In this document: positions 36,458 through 49,238 of the stretch, piece after piece
Position numbering within the stretch: the first letter of the stretch is position 1
How the letters are laid out: every line of letters starts with the position of its first letter
Origin: a virus
IMG/VR virus record: IMGVR_UViG_3300027906_000003
Coordinates: 59,821 to 123,820 of that record
Length of the DNA: 64,000 nucleotides
Reading direction: 5' to 3' (one strand)
Notes under the pieces: generated by a model
Database searches by the model: none
Told to the model about the DNA's origin: nothing
Seen by the model: only the letters and a program-made list of their open reading frames with translations
Position numbers and translations under genes: made by a program

Positions 36458-37346
36458 TCTATCAATACTTATACTTGCATCTTGCGCGTCCGTTCCTAGA
36501 TTTTCAAACGACCCACAAGAATGTAATCCAGAAACATGGGGTGAAGAATACAACCATGATTTGTGGAACTATGCTAAGGCAGCGGGTAGAACTTTTGAAA
36601 GAGCAATGCCTTTCATTTGTGTTGATGAACCACAACCAGTTAAACTTCCAAGTTTTATACAGTTATTAGATTTACCACCAGCAGAATCATCACCTGTTGT
36701 TGCAGTATATAAGTTTCAAGATTTAACAGGTCAAAGAAAAGCACAAGACAATATAGCCTCTTTCTCTACTGCTGTGACACAAGGTGGAACTGAGATGCTC
36801 ATTGATGCACTCAAAACTGCAGGTTCTGGAACTTGGTTCAGAGTGGTAGAGAGACAAGGTTTAGACCACCTTGTTAGAGAAAGGCAAATTATTCGTTCTG
36901 CCAGAGACGATATTGCAAAGAAAAAGGGAGAGGAATCTCCAGGTGTTGCACCACTTTTATTTGCAGGAATGATTATCGAGGGTGGAATTATTGGTTACGA
37001 TACCAATCTTGAAAGTGGTGGCCGAGGTGCCAGAACATTAGGGATTGGTATGAGTAGAATGTATAGAAAGGATGCTGTGACAGTTTCATTAAGAGCAGTA
37101 TCAGTTCTAACAGGTGAAGTATTATTAAATGTCCAAACAAGAAAGACTATCCTTTCTTATGGCGGAGGAGGCGATGTGTTTCGATTCATTGAAGAAGGAA
37201 CACAACTAGTCGAGTTCGAGGACGGAGTGGGAAATAATGAGTCAGTGACTTATGCAACACGGTCAGCTATTGAAGCTGCTGTGTTCGAATTAATACACCA
37301 AGGCCATGATAGAGGGTATTGGGAAATAAAAGGAAAAGAAAAATGA
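36423..37346 (+). CDS. csgG: CsgG-like outer-membrane secretion channel lipoprotein
   Basis: A 307-residue lipoprotein: short signal with lipobox LASC (Cys21) and then the CsgG domain: PVVAVYKFQDLTGQRK, TQGGTEMLIDALKTAG, WFRVVERQGLDHLVRERQIIRS, LFAGMIIEGGIIGYDTNLESGGRGAR, DAVTVSLRAVSVLTGEVLLNV. CsgG forms a nonameric outer-membrane pore for export of unfolded curli subunits. ATG 36423 is chosen because it gives a proper lipoprotein signal. Unusual for a phage; see findings. Confidence 0.93.
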   Translation: MAQVTARLTAVSLSILILASCASVPRFSNDPQECNPETWGEEYNHDLWNYAKAAGRTFERAMPFICVDEPQPVKLPSFIQLLDLPPAESSPVVAVYKFQDLTGQRKAQDNIASFSTAVTQGGTEMLIDALKTAGSGTWFRVVERQGLDHLVRERQIIRSARDDIAKKKGEESPGVAPLLFAGMIIEGGIIGYDTNLESGGRGARTLGIGMSRMYRKDAVTVSLRAVSVLTGEVLLNVQTRKTILSYGGGGDVFRFIEEGTQLVEFEDGVGNNESVTYATRSAIEAAVFELIHQGHDRGYWEIKGKEK

Positions 37347-38071
37347 AAAAATATCTATTAGCGCTAAGTATATTTCTTTCTACACCTTTTCTGTTTGCCG
37401 CTGCGGACGATGATAACGAAATTAACATAACACAAACTGGTGATACTTTAACATTATATATTGACCAGATTGGTTATGGAAACAAAATGGGATTGGATAA
37501 CTTTGATAGTAGTTCAAGTGCCATGCCTATCACAGGTACTTCGTTGACTTTTAACATCGACCAGCTGGGTAACGAGAACTTACTCTATGGTAAGGTCACA
37601 GCAGATTCTTCATCTTACACTTTAGAGTGGAATGGTGATAGTAATGTTTGGGACTGGATGATAGGTGAAACAGGTTCATCAGATACTACAAATATGTTAG
37701 TAGACATAACTGGTGACTCTAATACAATGGACTTTGACCAAGGTTCAGTTGCTCAAGCAGAGAGGTTAGATTTCGATTTAATAGTAATTGGTAGCTCCAA
37801 TGTTTTTGATGTAGATGTTGAATCAGATGATGCAACCTGGGATTTTGATATAACAGGTGCTTCAAACAACATCAACACATTGCAAAAAGATGGTGCTTAT
37901 CATAACATCACTTTTGAATTGACTGGTGATTCTGCAGATGTAGACATCAATCAGTTAAGTGGAACATGCCCACAAGGTGTTTCTACTTGCAAAGGTCAGA
38001 TTACATTGGACATTACAAGTGATAACTCAACTATCCAAATCAATCAGAAAGACACATCTAACGATTCTTAG
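37343..38071 (+). CDS. Curlin-like (CsgA/CsgB-type) secreted protein
   Basis: A 242-residue protein with a clean signal peptide (MKKYLLALSIFLSTPFLFA) and a repetitive beta-rich mature part rich in Asn, Gln, Asp and Thr. Repeats carry the curlin-like spacing of N-x-I-x-Q-x-G-x (EINITQTG, LYIDQIGYGN, FNIDQLGNEN, VDINQLSG, IQINQKD). Two Cys lie near the C-terminus. It overlaps csgG by 4 bases (ATGA), so the pore and its likely cargo are coupled. Confidence 0.8.
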   Translation: MKKYLLALSIFLSTPFLFAAADDDNEINITQTGDTLTLYIDQIGYGNKMGLDNFDSSSSAMPITGTSLTFNIDQLGNENLLYGKVTADSSSYTLEWNGDSNVWDWMIGETGSSDTTNMLVDITGDSNTMDFDQGSVAQAERLDFDLIVIGSSNVFDVDVESDDATWDFDITGASNNINTLQKDGAYHNITFELTGDSADVDINQLSGTCPQGVSTCKGQITLDITSDNSTIQINQKDTSNDS

Positions 38072-39188
38072 TATCTTACTCTTCATGGGGTCTGTTCAGG
38101 CAGACTCCATCGGAGATATAGTTGAATCAACAGGTATTGGTTCTGTTCTTAGAAACAATACCGAAATAGGCAACGATGTTGGAACAGGAATTGTTCTCTA
38201 TGATGAGGCAATAACAGGAAACGGCAGAATGCTTATTGAGTTCCTTGATGAAGAGGAACTTGCACTTACAGAACACACACAAGTATACATAGACGAAGTA
38301 TACTACGACCCAAATCCAAGTTTATCCAAGATGTCTTTAAGAATGGTTCAAGGCACCGCAAGATTTGCTTCTGGAAATGGACAAAGAATTAAAAAGTCTA
38401 ACATAGACATACGAACACCTACGGCACAAATAGCAATCCGTGGAACAGATTTCACAACAACCATTGACGAACTCGGAAGGAGTTTGATAGTTTTACTTCC
38501 TGATAGATTCGGAGATTCATCAGGAGAGATAACAGTTATAAATGATGGTGGAGAAATAGTCTTAGATAAGGCATTTCAAGCAACAATGGTTACAAGTTTA
38601 GATAGTCCTCCAACTCCACCAGTCACAATAACAAATTTAACAGTTAATCAAATAGATAATATGTTCATCGTTGCACCACCACCTGCAGTAGAACAAGCAG
38701 TTGAGGAACAGGCAAGAGATGATAACAACGAAGACCAAGGAATACTAGATGTAGATTTCTTAGAGTTCAATGAACTAGAAAAGGACTATGATGATTATGC
38801 AAATGACCCAGACTATGATGCAAGATATAGTTCTATTGATATTGATTTCTTAGATGCAGACTTTCTAGTGGACATGTTAGATGTCGTTGAAGAATTAATT
38901 AAAACTACAAAAGATTTAGGAGATAGACAAGCATCATCAGGTGGTGGTGCTGGAAGTTCAGATTTTAATATAAAAGGTGCCTCTTTTGGTAAGAATACAG
39001 ACTCACAATACAACATTTTTGTTGAAGATGGTGGTCTTGTATTCTATAGAGAGGTTGAAGGAAAGATAAGATTGGTATTTCAAGCAGGTGCCTCAGTAAG
39101 ATTAGACACTAGAGTTCCAACTTATGAGGGTGTTATAACAGTAAATGGTGGTGATGAAATCTTCATTTACATCAACCAATCTAACTAA
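38019..39188 (+). CDS. FecR-domain protein with signal peptide
   Basis: About 389 residues. A FecR domain occupies roughly residues 30-160: GIVLYDEAITGNGRMLIEFLDEEELALTEHTQVYID..., LRMVQGTARFASGN, IDIRTPTAQIAIRGTDFTT (parts quoted). An acidic linker and a Gly-rich C-terminal domain follow. I favour GTG 38019, which gives a signal sequence (KSIRKTH, then LTILSILLFMGSVQA); an ATG at 37959 is the alternative. It overlaps the curlin-like gene. FecR proteins transmit periplasmic signals, and FecR genes often neighbour CHASE2 cyclases in bacteria. Confidence 0.8.
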   Translation: MITQLSKSIRKTHLTILSILLFMGSVQADSIGDIVESTGIGSVLRNNTEIGNDVGTGIVLYDEAITGNGRMLIEFLDEEELALTEHTQVYIDEVYYDPNPSLSKMSLRMVQGTARFASGNGQRIKKSNIDIRTPTAQIAIRGTDFTTTIDELGRSLIVLLPDRFGDSSGEITVINDGGEIVLDKAFQATMVTSLDSPPTPPVTITNLTVNQIDNMFIVAPPPAVEQAVEEQARDDNNEDQGILDVDFLEFNELEKDYDDYANDPDYDARYSSIDIDFLDADFLVDMLDVVEELIKTTKDLGDRQASSGGGAGSSDFNIKGASFGKNTDSQYNIFVEDGGLVFYREVEGKIRLVFQAGASVRLDTRVPTYEGVITVNGGDEIFIYINQSN

Positions 39189-39191
39189 ATA
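39185..39191 (+). promoter_or_regulatory. Possible late promoter box (CTAAATA)
   Basis: CTAAATA on the stop of the FecR gene, upstream of a strong GAGGAGG and the 49-residue ORF at 39224. Confidence 0.35.
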
Positions 39192-39223
39192 CCACTACGA
39201 CAACATAAAAAAGAGGAGGTCGT

Positions 39224-39373
39224 ATGATAAATATGTTATCACAACTCCGTTCATGGCATGAAGACCAACTATTTGGATTTCAAAAAGCAATGAGACTAGA
39301 TGACTACCATATGTTATGGATTGCATTTAGTAAAGGGGTTCTATTAACGATGATATTACTATGGATTATATAA
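39224..39373 (+). CDS. Small membrane protein, 49 residues
   Basis: MINMLSQLRSWHEDQLFGFQ followed by a C-terminal hydrophobic helix (FSKGVLLTMILLWII). A strong GAGGAGG precedes the ATG at 39224. Its end overlaps the second curlin-like gene by 13 bases. No family recognised. Confidence 0.6.
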   Translation: MINMLSQLRSWHEDQLFGFQKAMRLDDYHMLWIAFSKGVLLTMILLWII

Positions 39374-40167
39374 CTAAATCATTATTGACATTAATTATAG
39401 GGGTATTTTTTACCCCTATAGTTTCAGCAGGTGACAACCATGTTCATGTTGAACAAGTTGCCGGCGGAGATAATTTTGAATTAAATATCACTCAAATCGG
39501 ATTTGAACAAATGATTCGATTCTCTTTTGACCATGCCAACAACGATGTAAATCTAATACAAAAAGGAAACAACATGTATATCGGATATACTGATGCGTGG
39601 GGTTCAGGTAAAGCATGGGGTGGAGATTTAGATGGTATAGATAATGAAGTCGATATAAGGCAAAGATGTTCTTTTGCAACTTGTAATGAAACTGATTTCC
39701 AATTTCACATTTGGGGAGACGACAATGAAGTTGTCTTTGGTCAAGGATATGAAAACAATAACAGCACTACACCAAACTGGAATTACGATGGTACCGAACC
39801 TGGTGGAAACTTTGTGAGATTAGATATACATGGTGATGATAACAAATTTAAAGGAAGTCAAAAACAAGATTCAAGTTCAATTAATCATTCTATTACTGCA
39901 AACATATACGGAGATAATAATGATGTATGGGTTAAACAGATGCAGAATGGTGATAAGACTTTAAATCTAACAATCAATAGTGATTGGAATGAAGTTGCAA
40001 TCCAACAAAAGAACAATGGAGCTCATACAGCAACAATTAGTTTAACTGGAACAGAGGCAATTACTATGTTCTTAAATCAAGTGGGAAATACAACTCAATC
40101 ATATTCACTAACACAAAATTGTGTTACCGTTGGTGGTTGCACTGTTAGCGTCACACAAGGTAACTAA
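39361..40167 (+). CDS. Second curlin-like secreted protein
   Basis: A 268-residue protein with a signal peptide (residues 1-23, ending VSA-GD) and a repetitive mature region of N/Q/G-rich beta repeats (FELNITQIG, VNLIQKGNN, VWVKQMQNG, VAIQQKNNG, MFLNQVGN, VSVTQGN). Repeats such as GDDNEVVFGQG and GDNNDVWVKQ fit the curlin S/N-x5-Q pattern. With the gene at 37343 it may form a major/minor (CsgA/CsgB-like) pair. Confidence 0.8.
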   Translation: MDYITKSLLTLIIGVFFTPIVSAGDNHVHVEQVAGGDNFELNITQIGFEQMIRFSFDHANNDVNLIQKGNNMYIGYTDAWGSGKAWGGDLDGIDNEVDIRQRCSFATCNETDFQFHIWGDDNEVVFGQGYENNNSTTPNWNYDGTEPGGNFVRLDIHGDDNKFKGSQKQDSSSINHSITANIYGDNNDVWVKQMQNGDKTLNLTINSDWNEVAIQQKNNGAHTATISLTGTEAITMFLNQVGNTTQSYSLTQNCVTVGGCTVSVTQGN

Positions 40168-42465: not shown

Positions 42466-42769
42466 ACCCATAAGTGATGTTCAATGGGGTATATTCTATA
42501 CTCTTCAAGTTTTAGATGTCTTTACTACCTATAAAGGTCTTCAATACGATTGTGTTGTAGAAATTAATCCTATTATTGGAGAAAGACCTAGTCTCAACAA
42601 AATGATTTTCACCAAGGTGGCTATTCTAACACCTGCAATTAGAGCTGACATGAAAAAAGGCACTGTAGACAGACACATTATGTCAGAAATAAATTTTTTA
42701 ATGTCTGTTGTAATCATGAATAACTATGAAATTTGGCAAGATTCCACCAAAAAGTGCAATAAAATTTAA
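42170..42769 (+). CDS. Unknown protein overlapping the cyclase gene
   Basis: The frame is open from 42170 and the last 304 bases lie beyond the cyclase stop. That unique part (LHEPISDVQWGIFYTLQVLDVFTTYKGLQYDCVVEINPIIGE, in parts) looks like a real membrane-associated protein, loosely like DUF5658. The part inside the cyclase, in another frame, reads as a signal peptide (NLLTCLLLMWASASAQA). Either the gene overlaps the cyclase by 296 bases or it starts later; I cannot decide from sequence alone. Confidence 0.5.
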   Translation: MKNLNLLTCLLLMWASASAQANVLSETWVPNLDLTIPSSEMQSTSVLDSKAKQEIILGLTCCYRKELIDNVRKEHSQKLIESRLRERKYQSLSTLRLHEPISDVQWGIFYTLQVLDVFTTYKGLQYDCVVEINPIIGERPSLNKMIFTKVAILTPAIRADMKKGTVDRHIMSEINFLMSVVIMNNYEIWQDSTKKCNKI

Positions 42770-42777
42770 AAAACCGC

Positions 42778-42807
42778 TTGATTAAACCATAAAGAACACT
42801 ATATACT
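42778..42807 (+). promoter_or_regulatory. Sigma-70-type promoter of a long leader RNA
   Basis: TTGATT (42778-42783), 18-nt spacer, TATACT (42802-42807). An A-tract and ACCGC precede the -35 as in the other A-tract promoters. The predicted start is 42814, the first base of a 7-bp closing stem. Confidence 0.75.
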
Positions 42808-42813
42808 ATAGTA

Positions 42814-43007
42814 AGAGAACTTAAAAAGAGCTCGGAATCTGGGTTGAAATCGTAAATGGAACCAATTGGCCAATAACCGATAGATACAAGGGGACTTAAA
42901 AAGAGCTCGGTTCTCTAACACAGTGGAGAGTTCTAGGTAGAGGCAATCTATAAAGACTAATTGACTGGTCAAAGTGTAGCCACATTAAATCCTAGACACT
43001 TCCACAC
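42814..43007 (+). ncRNA. Candidate structured RNA upstream of hsp20
   Basis: About 250 bases without a gene between the promoter and the Hsp20 ATG. The first domain (42814-42916) is closed by AGAGAAC (42814-42820)/GTTCTCT (42910-42916). It contains two copies of ACTTAAAAAGAGCTCGG (42819-42835 and 42894-42910) and the palindrome ATTGGCCAAT. A second domain (about 42922-43007) pairs GTGGA with TCCAC and TCTAGG (42932-42937) with CCTAGA (42991-42996), and has the hairpin TTGA-CTGG-TCAA. No similarity to a riboswitch or tRNA that I know was seen. It could be a riboswitch, thermosensor or stand-alone RNA. Confidence 0.6.
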
Positions 43008-43064
43008 CCTAATGCTCAATTGAGGTTAGGTAATTTTAAACTTGCTAAATTTAGGAGAAATAAA

Positions 43065-43475
43065 ATGACGCATTTAGATATATTTGGTCAATTCAGACCG
43101 TTCGCAATTGGATTTGATAGATACTTCGAAGACCTCGAAAGAATGTCAACTCACACTCAAACTAATTATCCACCTTACAACATCGTAAAGGAAGATGATG
43201 AAAACTTTTGCATAGAACTTGCAGTTGCAGGTTTCAGCAAAGAGGACATTGAAGTCTCTAGGGAGAAAAATGTTCTTACTATTGAAGGAAAAGTAGATGA
43301 AGATTCTAAGGACTTTGTTCATAGAGGACTTGCATCAAGAGCCTTCAAAAGAAGTTTCAATCTTGCTGACTTAGTTGAAGTCACAGGTGCAGACATGAAA
43401 GATGGTATTCTACATGTCAAACTGGTTAAAGTTATTCCTGATGAAGACAAACCAGTAGTTATTGAAATTAGTTAA
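43065..43475 (+). CDS. hsp20: Hsp20/IbpA-type small heat shock protein
   Basis: A 136-residue alpha-crystallin-domain chaperone. The N-terminal FGQFRPFAIGFDRYFEDLE is typical of IbpA-like proteins. The core domain runs from YPPYNIVKEDDENFCIELAVAGFSKEDIEV (in parts) to LASRAFKRSFNL and GADMKDGILHVKL, and IEIS ends the protein. sHsps are common in T4-like cyanophages and may hold folding of capsid proteins. A good AGGAG precedes ATG 43065; an in-frame start at 43020 without a ribosome site is rejected. Confidence 0.95.
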   Translation: MTHLDIFGQFRPFAIGFDRYFEDLERMSTHTQTNYPPYNIVKEDDENFCIELAVAGFSKEDIEVSREKNVLTIEGKVDEDSKDFVHRGLASRAFKRSFNLADLVEVTGADMKDGILHVKLVKVIPDEDKPVVIEIS

Positions 43476-46721: not shown

Positions 46722-49238
46722 ATGGATTTTTATACAAATGTATGTAGAACTCGTGACAAAATTCTAGTCACAGGTTACCAATCAAATAAGAAAGTCAAAA
46801 TGAAAGTCGATTATCGACCTAAGCATTTTGTTCCCTCCAGAAAAGGTGATACACCTTACAAATCACTAGACGGCAGACCACTTGAAGTTGTAGAACTCAA
46901 CTCAATGGGTGGTGCAAGAAAGTTTAGAGAGAAGTATCATCAAACACAAGGTTTTGAAATACATGGTTATGATAGATATGTCTACACATATATTTCAGAT
47001 AAGTTTCCAACAGACTTCGAATACGACACAAAGAAAGTAAGAATTGCCACACTTGATATTGAGTGTGAATGTGAAGATGGTTTTCCAGAACCAATGAGAG
47101 CAGATGAGAAAGTAAATGCAATTGCAATTAAACCTTTCGGTCATAATACACATGTTTTTGGTTTAGGTCCTTGGGATGATAAACCGGCTAATTGTGTTTA
47201 TTATGATTGTGTAGATGAAGCACAACTTCTAACAGAGTTCATTAAGTTCTGGAGAAAGGCTTCTTTTGATATTGTCACAGGTTGGAATGTAGACTCATTT
47301 GATATCACATATCTTTGTAATAGAATTGATAAAGTTTTCGGTGAAGGAGAACATAAGAAATTATCTCCTTGGAATATGTCAGATGTTAGAGAATACACAT
47401 CTAACTTTGGTCAGAAACAACAAACATTTAATCTTTATGGTATTAGTATTGTCGATTACTTAGATTTATATCGTAAACATACACCACAAACACAAGAGTC
47501 ATACAAACTAGAACATATTGCACAAGTAGAACTTAATAAAGGTAAGATTGATTACTCAGAGTATGGTAATCTACACACACTTTATAAACAAGACTACTCT
47601 AAGTTCCTTGCATATAATGTTAAAGACGCCGTTCTTGTTGAAGAACTAGAAGAGAAACTTGGTTTCTTAGAACTCACAATTGTGATGGCTTATTCTGCCA
47701 AGTGTAATTACAATGACACTTTCGGTATGGTTAAGTATTGGGAAACAATCATCTATAATCATCTAAAGAAACAGGGAATTCAAACACCACCTCAGGCATT
47801 AAAGAGAGACCAAAAGAACTATCGTATTGAGGGTGCATATGTAAAAGAACCAATCGTTGGTGGTCATAATTGGGTGATGTCTTTTGATTTGAACTCACTT
47901 TATCCTCATTTGATTATGCAGTTTAATATTTCACCTGAGAAGATGATAAAGGGTGGTCTTATGGACACAAAGATTACATCTATGTTAGATAAGAAGAATG
48001 ACTTATCTGAACTTAAAAAACAAAATGCAACTGTCACACCAAATGGTGTTAAGTTCAAAAGAGACAAACAAGGTTTTCTTCCTGAACTCATGGAAACATT
48101 ATACGATGAGAGAAGAGAATACAAACAGAAGATGATTTCACATCAAAAAGAACTACAAGTTTGTGATGACCCTATTGAAAGAAAAAGACTTGAAGTTAAA
48201 ATCAAAAGGGCATACAACAATCAACAGGTTAGAAAGATATCTTTGAACAGTGCATATGGTGTTCTTGCAAATCAGTGGTTTGCTTTCTTTGACCCACAAC
48301 TTGCAGAGTCAGTCACTACTGCAGGCCAGTTAGTAATCAAATGGTCAGAGAAGACTGCAAATGATTATCTAAACAAAGTTCTAAAAACAAACAAAGATTA
48401 CATTGTTGCAATGGATACTGATTCAATCTATATCACACTTGATGATTTAGTGAATCAAATCTTTACACCAGAACAACAGAAAGATAAGAGTCGAGTTGTA
48501 GATTTCTTATGTAAGATTGAAGAAGAAATTGAGAATGCTTTGAGAGAAGGATTTGACGACCTTAAAGATTATACAAATGCGTTTCAACAGAAAATGGAAA
48601 TGGGTAGAGAAGTTATTGCAGACCGTGGTATTTGGACTGCAAAGAAAAGATATATTCTAAATGTATATGATAATGAGGGTGTAAGACTCAGAACTCCAAA
48701 ACTAAAAATGATGGGTATTGAAACTGCAAAGTCTTCTACTCCTCAATGGGTCAGAAAGAAACTTACTGAAGCATTGAATATTGTAATGACAAAGACTGAA
48801 CAAGAGTTGTGGGAATTTGTTGAGACAACAAGAAAAGAATTTAGAAATCTTCCTGCAGAAGAGATTGCATCACCAAGAGGGTGTAATAACATTAAACAAT
48901 ATGCAGATAACTCAGACATCTACTCAAAGGGAACACCCATACATGTCCGTGGTGCTTTACTTTATAATCATCACTTAGAGAAACTAAACTTAGATAAAAG
49001 ATATGAGTTGATAAAGAACGGAGATAAACTACACTTTACATATCTTACAACACCAAATCCAATCAAAGAGAATGTTATCTCATTCTTATCGGTTCTGCCT
49101 CGTGAGTTTGACATACACAAATATGTTGATTATGACTTACAGTTTGATAAGGCATTCATTGAACCACTGAAAGGAATTATTAGTCTTATTGACTGGAATG
49201 TAGAACCAGTTGCAAGTCTGGATAGTTTTTTTGCATAA
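46722..49238 (+). CDS. 43: Family B DNA polymerase gp43
   Basis: An 838-residue replicative polymerase homologous to T4 gp43 (898 residues). The 3'-5' exonuclease has ATLDIECECEDGFP (Exo I) and VTGWNVDSFDITYL (Exo II), with the Exo III YNVKDAVLVEELE. Polymerase motif A is MSFDLNSLYPHLIM, motif B KISLNSAYGVLANQ and motif C VAMDTDSIYIT. The C-terminal IISLIDWNVEPVASLDSFF resembles the clamp-binding tail. There is no sign of the intein or split known from some related phages. Confidence 0.97.
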   Translation: MDFYTNVCRTRDKILVTGYQSNKKVKMKVDYRPKHFVPSRKGDTPYKSLDGRPLEVVELNSMGGARKFREKYHQTQGFEIHGYDRYVYTYISDKFPTDFEYDTKKVRIATLDIECECEDGFPEPMRADEKVNAIAIKPFGHNTHVFGLGPWDDKPANCVYYDCVDEAQLLTEFIKFWRKASFDIVTGWNVDSFDITYLCNRIDKVFGEGEHKKLSPWNMSDVREYTSNFGQKQQTFNLYGISIVDYLDLYRKHTPQTQESYKLEHIAQVELNKGKIDYSEYGNLHTLYKQDYSKFLAYNVKDAVLVEELEEKLGFLELTIVMAYSAKCNYNDTFGMVKYWETIIYNHLKKQGIQTPPQALKRDQKNYRIEGAYVKEPIVGGHNWVMSFDLNSLYPHLIMQFNISPEKMIKGGLMDTKITSMLDKKNDLSELKKQNATVTPNGVKFKRDKQGFLPELMETLYDERREYKQKMISHQKELQVCDDPIERKRLEVKIKRAYNNQQVRKISLNSAYGVLANQWFAFFDPQLAESVTTAGQLVIKWSEKTANDYLNKVLKTNKDYIVAMDTDSIYITLDDLVNQIFTPEQQKDKSRVVDFLCKIEEEIENALREGFDDLKDYTNAFQQKMEMGREVIADRGIWTAKKRYILNVYDNEGVRLRTPKLKMMGIETAKSSTPQWVRKKLTEALNIVMTKTEQELWEFVETTRKEFRNLPAEEIASPRGCNNIKQYADNSDIYSKGTPIHVRGALLYNHHLEKLNLDKRYELIKNGDKLHFTYLTTPNPIKENVISFLSVLPREFDIHKYVDYDLQFDKAFIEPLKGIISLIDWNVEPVASLDSFFA

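Follow-up and report, generated by a model that had tools for sequence, protein, structure and literature searches.

Hairpins of the LicT/SacY type, which act as ribonucleic antiterminators, are pseudo-symmetric RNAs with two similar asymmetric loops and are read by a protein dimer. In leaders of the ompA type, a 5'-terminal stem-loop whose stem lies at the very 5' end acts as an mRNA stabiliser. Among marine phages, manA and wcaG RNAs have been described (PMC2864571), and glutamine riboswitches are also carried (PMC9004378). The manA motif occurs in T4-like cyanophages in potential 5' UTRs of genes that include the ibpA chaperones, which are relatives of hsp20 (PMC2864571).

The leader described here precedes an hsp20 gene in the virus record G000 (123.8 kb), which belongs to a marine virus of bacteria; the window, i.e. 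the whole stretch of DNA that was analysed, is a 64-kb part of this record. The preceding ORF stops at 42769, the leader region before hsp20 measures 295 nt, and a T4-type DNA polymerase gene (46722-49238) lies beyond hsp20. Elsewhere in the window, ORFs at 37319-40167 contain Asn/Gln-rich motifs in repeated form and resemble curli subunits; a curli operon was reported for related marine myophages (Melnitz, PMC9004378). What is new here is a double-bulge fold, predicted by sequence comparison, previously unclassified and shared by dozens of phages that have not been cultured. The locus comprises the following features:

42778-42807, plus strand: sigma-70-type promoter as read in the sequence, with -35 TTGATT (42778-42783), an 18-nt spacer and -10 TATACT (42802-42807)
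42814-42916, plus strand: twofold-symmetric double-bulge RNA element (domain A), matched by a CM from 28 relatives with 48.8 bits, E 6.5e-13
42814-42821, plus strand: 5' strand of stem P1, AGAGAAC (42814-42820) plus U42821, the latter in a U.G wobble with G42909; P1 covaries in relatives
42822-42827, plus strand: first 6-nt bulge, UAAAAA (family consensus UNAAAA)
42828-42833, plus strand: strand 1 of the central helix, GAGCUC, pairing with 42903-42908
42834-42896, plus strand: P2 region, with a G42834...U42896 wobble, a G-C closing pair and an insert of the CUGGGU...ACAAGGGGAC type
42897-42902, plus strand: second 6-nt bulge, UAAAAA, symmetric with the first
42903-42908, plus strand: strand 2 of the central helix, GAGCUC, pairing with strand 1
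42909-42916, plus strand: 3' strand of P1, the wobble base G42909 plus GUUCUCU (42910-42916)
42922-43008, plus strand: optional middle block (domain B), in which GUGGA could pair with UCCAC and UCUAGG with CCUAGA
43006-43070, plus strand: ROSE-type RNA thermometer (domain C), Rfam RF02523 ROSE_3, full model 1-69, 40.6 bits, E 4.5e-7
43008-43030, plus strand: thermometer hairpin 1, CCUAAU(G)CUC-AAUU-GAGGUUAGG, with a bulged G
43041-43057, plus strand: Shine-Dalgarno hairpin, CUUGCU (43041-43046) against AGGAG (43053-43057) with a bulged G, from the ROSE_3 alignment and the MFE fold
43065-43475, plus strand: hsp20, start codon ATG at 43065, a small heat-shock protein of 136 aa (PHROG 432 Hsp20, E 3.1e-45)

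The predicted transcription start, 42814, coincides with the first base of P1, as a first-pass annotation of this DNA had proposed, and the promoter hexamers and spacer can be read in the sequence. In many relatives the -10 hexamer likewise ends 6 nt ahead of the first P1 base; in other relatives a T4-late-like TATAAATA stands before the element in place of the sigma-70-type hexamer. The same annotation had described a 103-nt domain closed by a 7-bp stem and holding two exact 17-nt repeats with GAGCTC, and this description is borne out. It can be amended in one respect: the repeats (ACTTAAAAAGAGCTCGG, at 42819-42835 and 42894-42910) form opposite strands of a single RNA element, partners whose GAGCUC cores pair mutually, as covariation in relatives shows. 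Within the 64-kb window, AAAGAGCTCGG was found at just these two repeat sites.

Comparison among relatives shows 42814-42916 as a predicted unbroken rod in which P1, a GNGCNC helix of 6 bp and P2 follow one another; each strand has one UNAAAA bulge, and a twofold axis runs through the central helix. The general shape can be written P1 - C U[UNAAAA]GNGCNC G - P2 - C U[UNAAAA]GNGCNC G - P1'. P2 is of several types among relatives. It is a simple hairpin in L061, L017 and L180; elsewhere it has a larger insert (GGAACUWGGAUUGGGCAACGCCGACAUCWAGUGACCCCA) or is of the type of the window, CUGGGU...ACAAGGGG, which is the same in L019, L020, L009 and L016 and whose comparative support extends to the closing pairs only. 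Folding energy alone (z = -1.9 for 42814-42916) would not reveal the domain; it is the comparative evidence that places the element beyond chance.

This evidence comes from a 17-mer scan of IMG/VR, which returned 43 stretches, and from gapped and degenerate pattern scans together with relatives of the hsp20 protein, which brought the collection to 62 distinct elements. The central helix is fully paired in all 62 copies, and its strands vary between phages yet match mutually: GAGCUC/GAGCUC, GAGCAC/GUGCUC, GUGCUC/GAGCAC, GCGCUC/GAGCGC, GAGCGC/GCGCUC, GCGCGC/GCGCGC and GGGCAC/GUGCCC were all seen. Since the search pattern left the two variable positions open, this matching was not imposed by the search. 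Covariation was scored over 20 pairs in a set of 28 distinct minimal versions (set A1). There, 93.0% of cells were paired versus 74.3% after shuffling, and 122 cells were changed on both sides versus 46. The covariation score was 0.515 against 0.167 for shuffled alignments (reached in 0 of 500, a count that is not a probability because the sequences are related) and dropped to 0.04-0.08 (maximum 0.083) when the pairing was slid. Pairs 2 and 5 of the central helix show two-sided changes with 100% pairing in this set, P1 and P2 strongly covary too, and covariation is thus seen in all three stems; the compensatory changes that the first-pass annotation had put forward as decisive for its stems are present in the 103-nt domain. 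The bulges are invariant in A1 except at position N, an invariance of UUNAAAA, like that of GNGCNC, that the search patterns partly imposed; the variants L057, L066 and L079 were reached through hsp20 and not through the motif search. The U.G wobble U42821/G42909 is kept in 28 of 28 members of A1, the two bulge-adjacent U.G wobbles being invariant, and G.U pairs are frequent elsewhere in the element. Invariant and common G.U pairs, together with copies on the coding strand only, argue for selection acting on RNA and not on DNA.

The element occurs in two settings only, always on the coding strand: within the 5' leader that precedes hsp20, and where the mRNA of gene 32, the single-strand DNA-binding protein according to PHROG 224, ends. 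In a census of loci, which includes repeat fetches of some contigs, the element is followed by hsp20 in 153 loci and preceded by gene 32 in 14, the gene lying on the same strand in either case; the nine unclassified loci are contig ends that belong to these two kinds as well. An apparent second gene family ('context b') was rejected, as it is the hsp20 leader again, merely longer. In most short hsp20 leaders P1 lies at or near the predicted start. The element is not always 5'-terminal, however, because in the longer hsp20 leaders of some phages (L173, L181, L082) it is internal. In the gene 32 setting the element often lies within the terminator (e.g. CGTAGATCTTC...GGTCTACGACCCTTTTTT), and downstream of it a gene on the same strand is absent.

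When whole records were searched with the model, 25 of 29 virus records matched with one confident copy each, and the sole second match was weak (17.4 bits, in G027). Large phage records thus carry one copy, either at the 5' end of hsp20 or at the 3' end of gene 32. The element was not found by this search in four hsp20 phages (G005, G006, G008, G013), and blastn against 50,697 annotated phage records returned no copy of it. A CM search of nine whole phage records (including HTVC008M, Mosig, Melnitz-3, P-TIM40, S-CRM01 and P-SSM4) gave nothing convincing, the best match being in Mosig with E 0.004. In cellular genomes the short-P2 pattern gave two matches, both rejected: L164 is a phage contig inside a MAG and L163 a coding coincidence.

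Other conserved blocks were observed around the two settings. Several long leaders (L176, L177, L181, L082, L173) extend over several hundred nt with repeated GTAAGGGA...TCGTAAGTGAA...CCTAC units around the element. Two leaders of the longer hsp20 type (L197, L218) hold a conserved block of about 150 nt (CCAACAAAGGACTGAGAATGGCAACA...) located 60-250 nt downstream of the element and before the thermometer. Right after the stop codon of gene 32, a block of about 180 nt (L253, in G000:C1 from about 18.2 kb and thus outside the window, L254, L255, L256) is common to G000, G001, G003 and G005 and resembles another structured RNA: its stems differ in sequence with the same pairing, and GTAAGGGAAAG and GAGCGGG..TGCTGTAA..GGGGYGA are conserved. 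This block had no Rfam match at the gathering cut-off.

An Rfam search, which the first-pass annotation had suggested, was run on the leader against Rfam 15 with gathering and permissive settings. Domain A matched no family, in agreement with the earlier statement that the leader resembles no known RNA; that statement fails for 43006-43070, the last 65 nt, where ROSE_3 was the only family found in the leader. The snoR07 and freshwater-2 matches were at chance level and rejected, and the other Rfam matches across the searched sequences were tRNAs. No manA or wcaG match was obtained by CM up to E 5 over 42700-43120. Likewise, neither CM nor ARAGORN searches matched the leader to glnA or glutamine riboswitches, tRNA or tmRNA, and the reported lack of a tRNA or glnA-type core is confirmed. 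As domain A matches neither known families nor annotated phages, the leader is therefore described as a phage leader of modular build, which has a ROSE-type thermometer and holds an unclassified RNA family.

The assignment of 43006-43070 as a ROSE-type element is made from shape and position, its score of 40.6 bits in the permissive search falling just short of the ROSE_3 gathering cut-off of 43 bits. A UYGCU-type strand with a bulged G pairs with the Shine-Dalgarno sequence, a conserved hairpin stands upstream and hsp20 adjoins. The small hairpin that had been placed in a second domain does exist; it is the first hairpin of this thermometer, which reaches the start codon. In 26 phage hsp20 leaders, including those of Prochlorococcus, Synechococcus and Pelagibacter phages, hairpin 1 has 92% of cells paired and a covariation of 0.702 against 0.223 when shuffled (0 of 500), while the hairpin pairing with the Shine-Dalgarno sequence is too conserved for a covariation signal. 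The fold z of the last 65 nt is -1.1. In the model the Shine-Dalgarno site becomes smoothly more exposed on warming, from 0.09 at 4 C to 0.39 at 45 C. The thermometer probably lets hsp20 be translated only when warm. The earlier suggestion of a thermosensor for the heat-shock gene accordingly applies to the leader through these 65 nt and not to the 103-nt domain, which leaves the modelled accessibility of the site unchanged. Weaker ROSE_3 matches were found in L083 and in the Methylophilales phage Melnitz-3. Freshwater phage leaders (L113-L117, about 50-250 nt upstream of hsp20) carry another conserved block, CACCTTAGGGCCGTTTGATGCTACGG...GGTAAGCTGG, followed by a ROSE-like end; for L113, L117, L114 and L115 this block had no Rfam match. 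A search of the literature, in which subscription journals are sparsely covered, found no paper on phage hsp20 RNA thermometers or on the domain A motif.

The composition of the leader varies even among near relatives of the gene. In L045-L051, whose hsp20 proteins are 95-96% identical to that of the window, the thermometer stands alone directly at the promoter; L052, with the same identity, has the thermometer and an element with another P2 type. In the window, and likewise in L044, domains A, B and C are all present. Close hsp20 relatives thus keep the thermometer and may lack the element, which makes domain A the accessory and the thermometer the constant part. Whole leader modules were swapped between hsp20 alleles (L009, L014, L052). 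Domain B is found in the same form in L009, ahead of a different hsp20 allele, and its 20-nt core occurs in two viral contigs only in the viral collection searched, identical in both; it looks like a recently exchanged block. The complementarity that had been noted there, GTGGA (42923-42927) with TCCAC (43001-43005) and TCTAGG (42932-42937) with CCTAGA (42991-42996), is confirmed; at a fold z of -0.3, the corresponding stems are possible pairings read from the sequence.

The explanation favoured here, tentatively, is twofold: that independent RNA modules together make up the leader of a single short hsp20 transcript, and that the element is an mRNA-end module, a role suggested by its position, which would shield the transcript from end-dependent decay. 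In the cold, the ROSE hairpin would block ribosome binding; warming would melt it and Hsp20 would be made. The double-bulge element would fold once transcription begins, placing the mRNA 5' end in a stem, and would leave the ribosome site ungated; deleting it in the model left exposure of the Shine-Dalgarno site unchanged. Shielding would probably be mediated by a symmetric (dimeric) RNA-binding protein from the host or the phage. An end-module role would explain why the element is otherwise seen only where the gene 32 mRNA terminates, in or beside the terminator. A single copy per large phage record is odd for a general stabiliser, and the longer leaders that hold the element internally likewise count against a simple stabilising role. 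One of the two main rivals, a rather doubtful one, makes the element a site bound by a dimeric regulatory protein that controls translation, termination or processing of the linked transcript and not its general stability; LicT/SacY-type dimers offer a possible parallel. The twofold symmetry, the two equal bulges and the invariant flanking pairs fit a homodimer, and gene 32 copies sit in the terminator; no common pathway is obvious, however, between hsp20 and gene 32 or between 5' and 3' positions. Nor did a phage partner gene emerge when the gene content of records with the element (G000, G001, G003) was compared with that of records without it (G005, G006): in these incomplete records, none of six candidates is evidently RNA-binding.

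The single copy, in one of two places, together with a self-contained fold closed by P1 and a terminator at or directly behind the element in the gene 32 setting, would suit an RNA that acts in trans or as a decoy, freed from the hsp20 leader or from the end of gene 32 and titrating a host protein or defence factor; an independent RNA had been among the possibilities listed by the first-pass annotation. This other main rival is improbable. In the window, the hsp20 setting has no terminator in its sequence between the element and the gene. A riboswitch or second thermosensor acting on hsp20, for which the 5' leader location ahead of a stress gene would speak, is very unlikely: the fold is modelled as constant from 4 to 37 C with no effect on exposure of the ribosome site, and the riboswitch that had been listed among the possibilities finds no support because the same element, at the ends of gene 32 transcripts, controls no downstream gene. 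Scarcely credible is a DNA feature such as a recombination site, a replication origin or a mobile insert; the exchange of whole leader modules among hsp20 alleles would agree with it, but it is contradicted by the invariant U.G and G.U pairs, the frequent G.U pairs elsewhere and the strict coding-strand orientation. Returning to the mRNA-end module, a bolder version would make the element a new phage RNA class, present once per phage, in which a twofold-symmetric pair of A-rich bulges captures a host or phage protein, serving as mRNA-end cap or decoy and exchanged between uncultured marine phages; this is possible, if doubtful.

Phage hsp20 leaders are modular, with a constant ROSE-type thermometer and interchangeable RNA modules in front, and phage thermometers are relevant to the response of phage replication to ocean temperature. 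Few structured RNAs are known from marine phages; domain A joins them as an unclassified RNA fold that comparison strongly supports. Its link between the 5' end of hsp20 and the 3' end of gene 32 poses a specific question, namely what reads the element RNA, for which a 62-nt molecule would suffice in vitro.

Domain C resembles known ROSE thermometers in having a bulged-G hairpin, then a UYGCU box paired with the Shine-Dalgarno sequence, before a small heat-shock gene; it differs in serving a phage rather than a cellular gene, in scoring below the family cut-off and in making up only the last 65 nt of its leader. Domain A may be likened to the LicT/SacY antiterminator hairpins, whereas sequences and loop sizes differ and no such protein was seen. 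Unlike the ompA-type stabilisers, it has conserved bulge sequences and serves at a 3' end as well. Like the manA motif, domain A is a structured RNA in a 5' UTR position before hsp20-type genes of marine phages; in contrast to that motif, it gives no CM match to it and also ends gene 32 transcripts.
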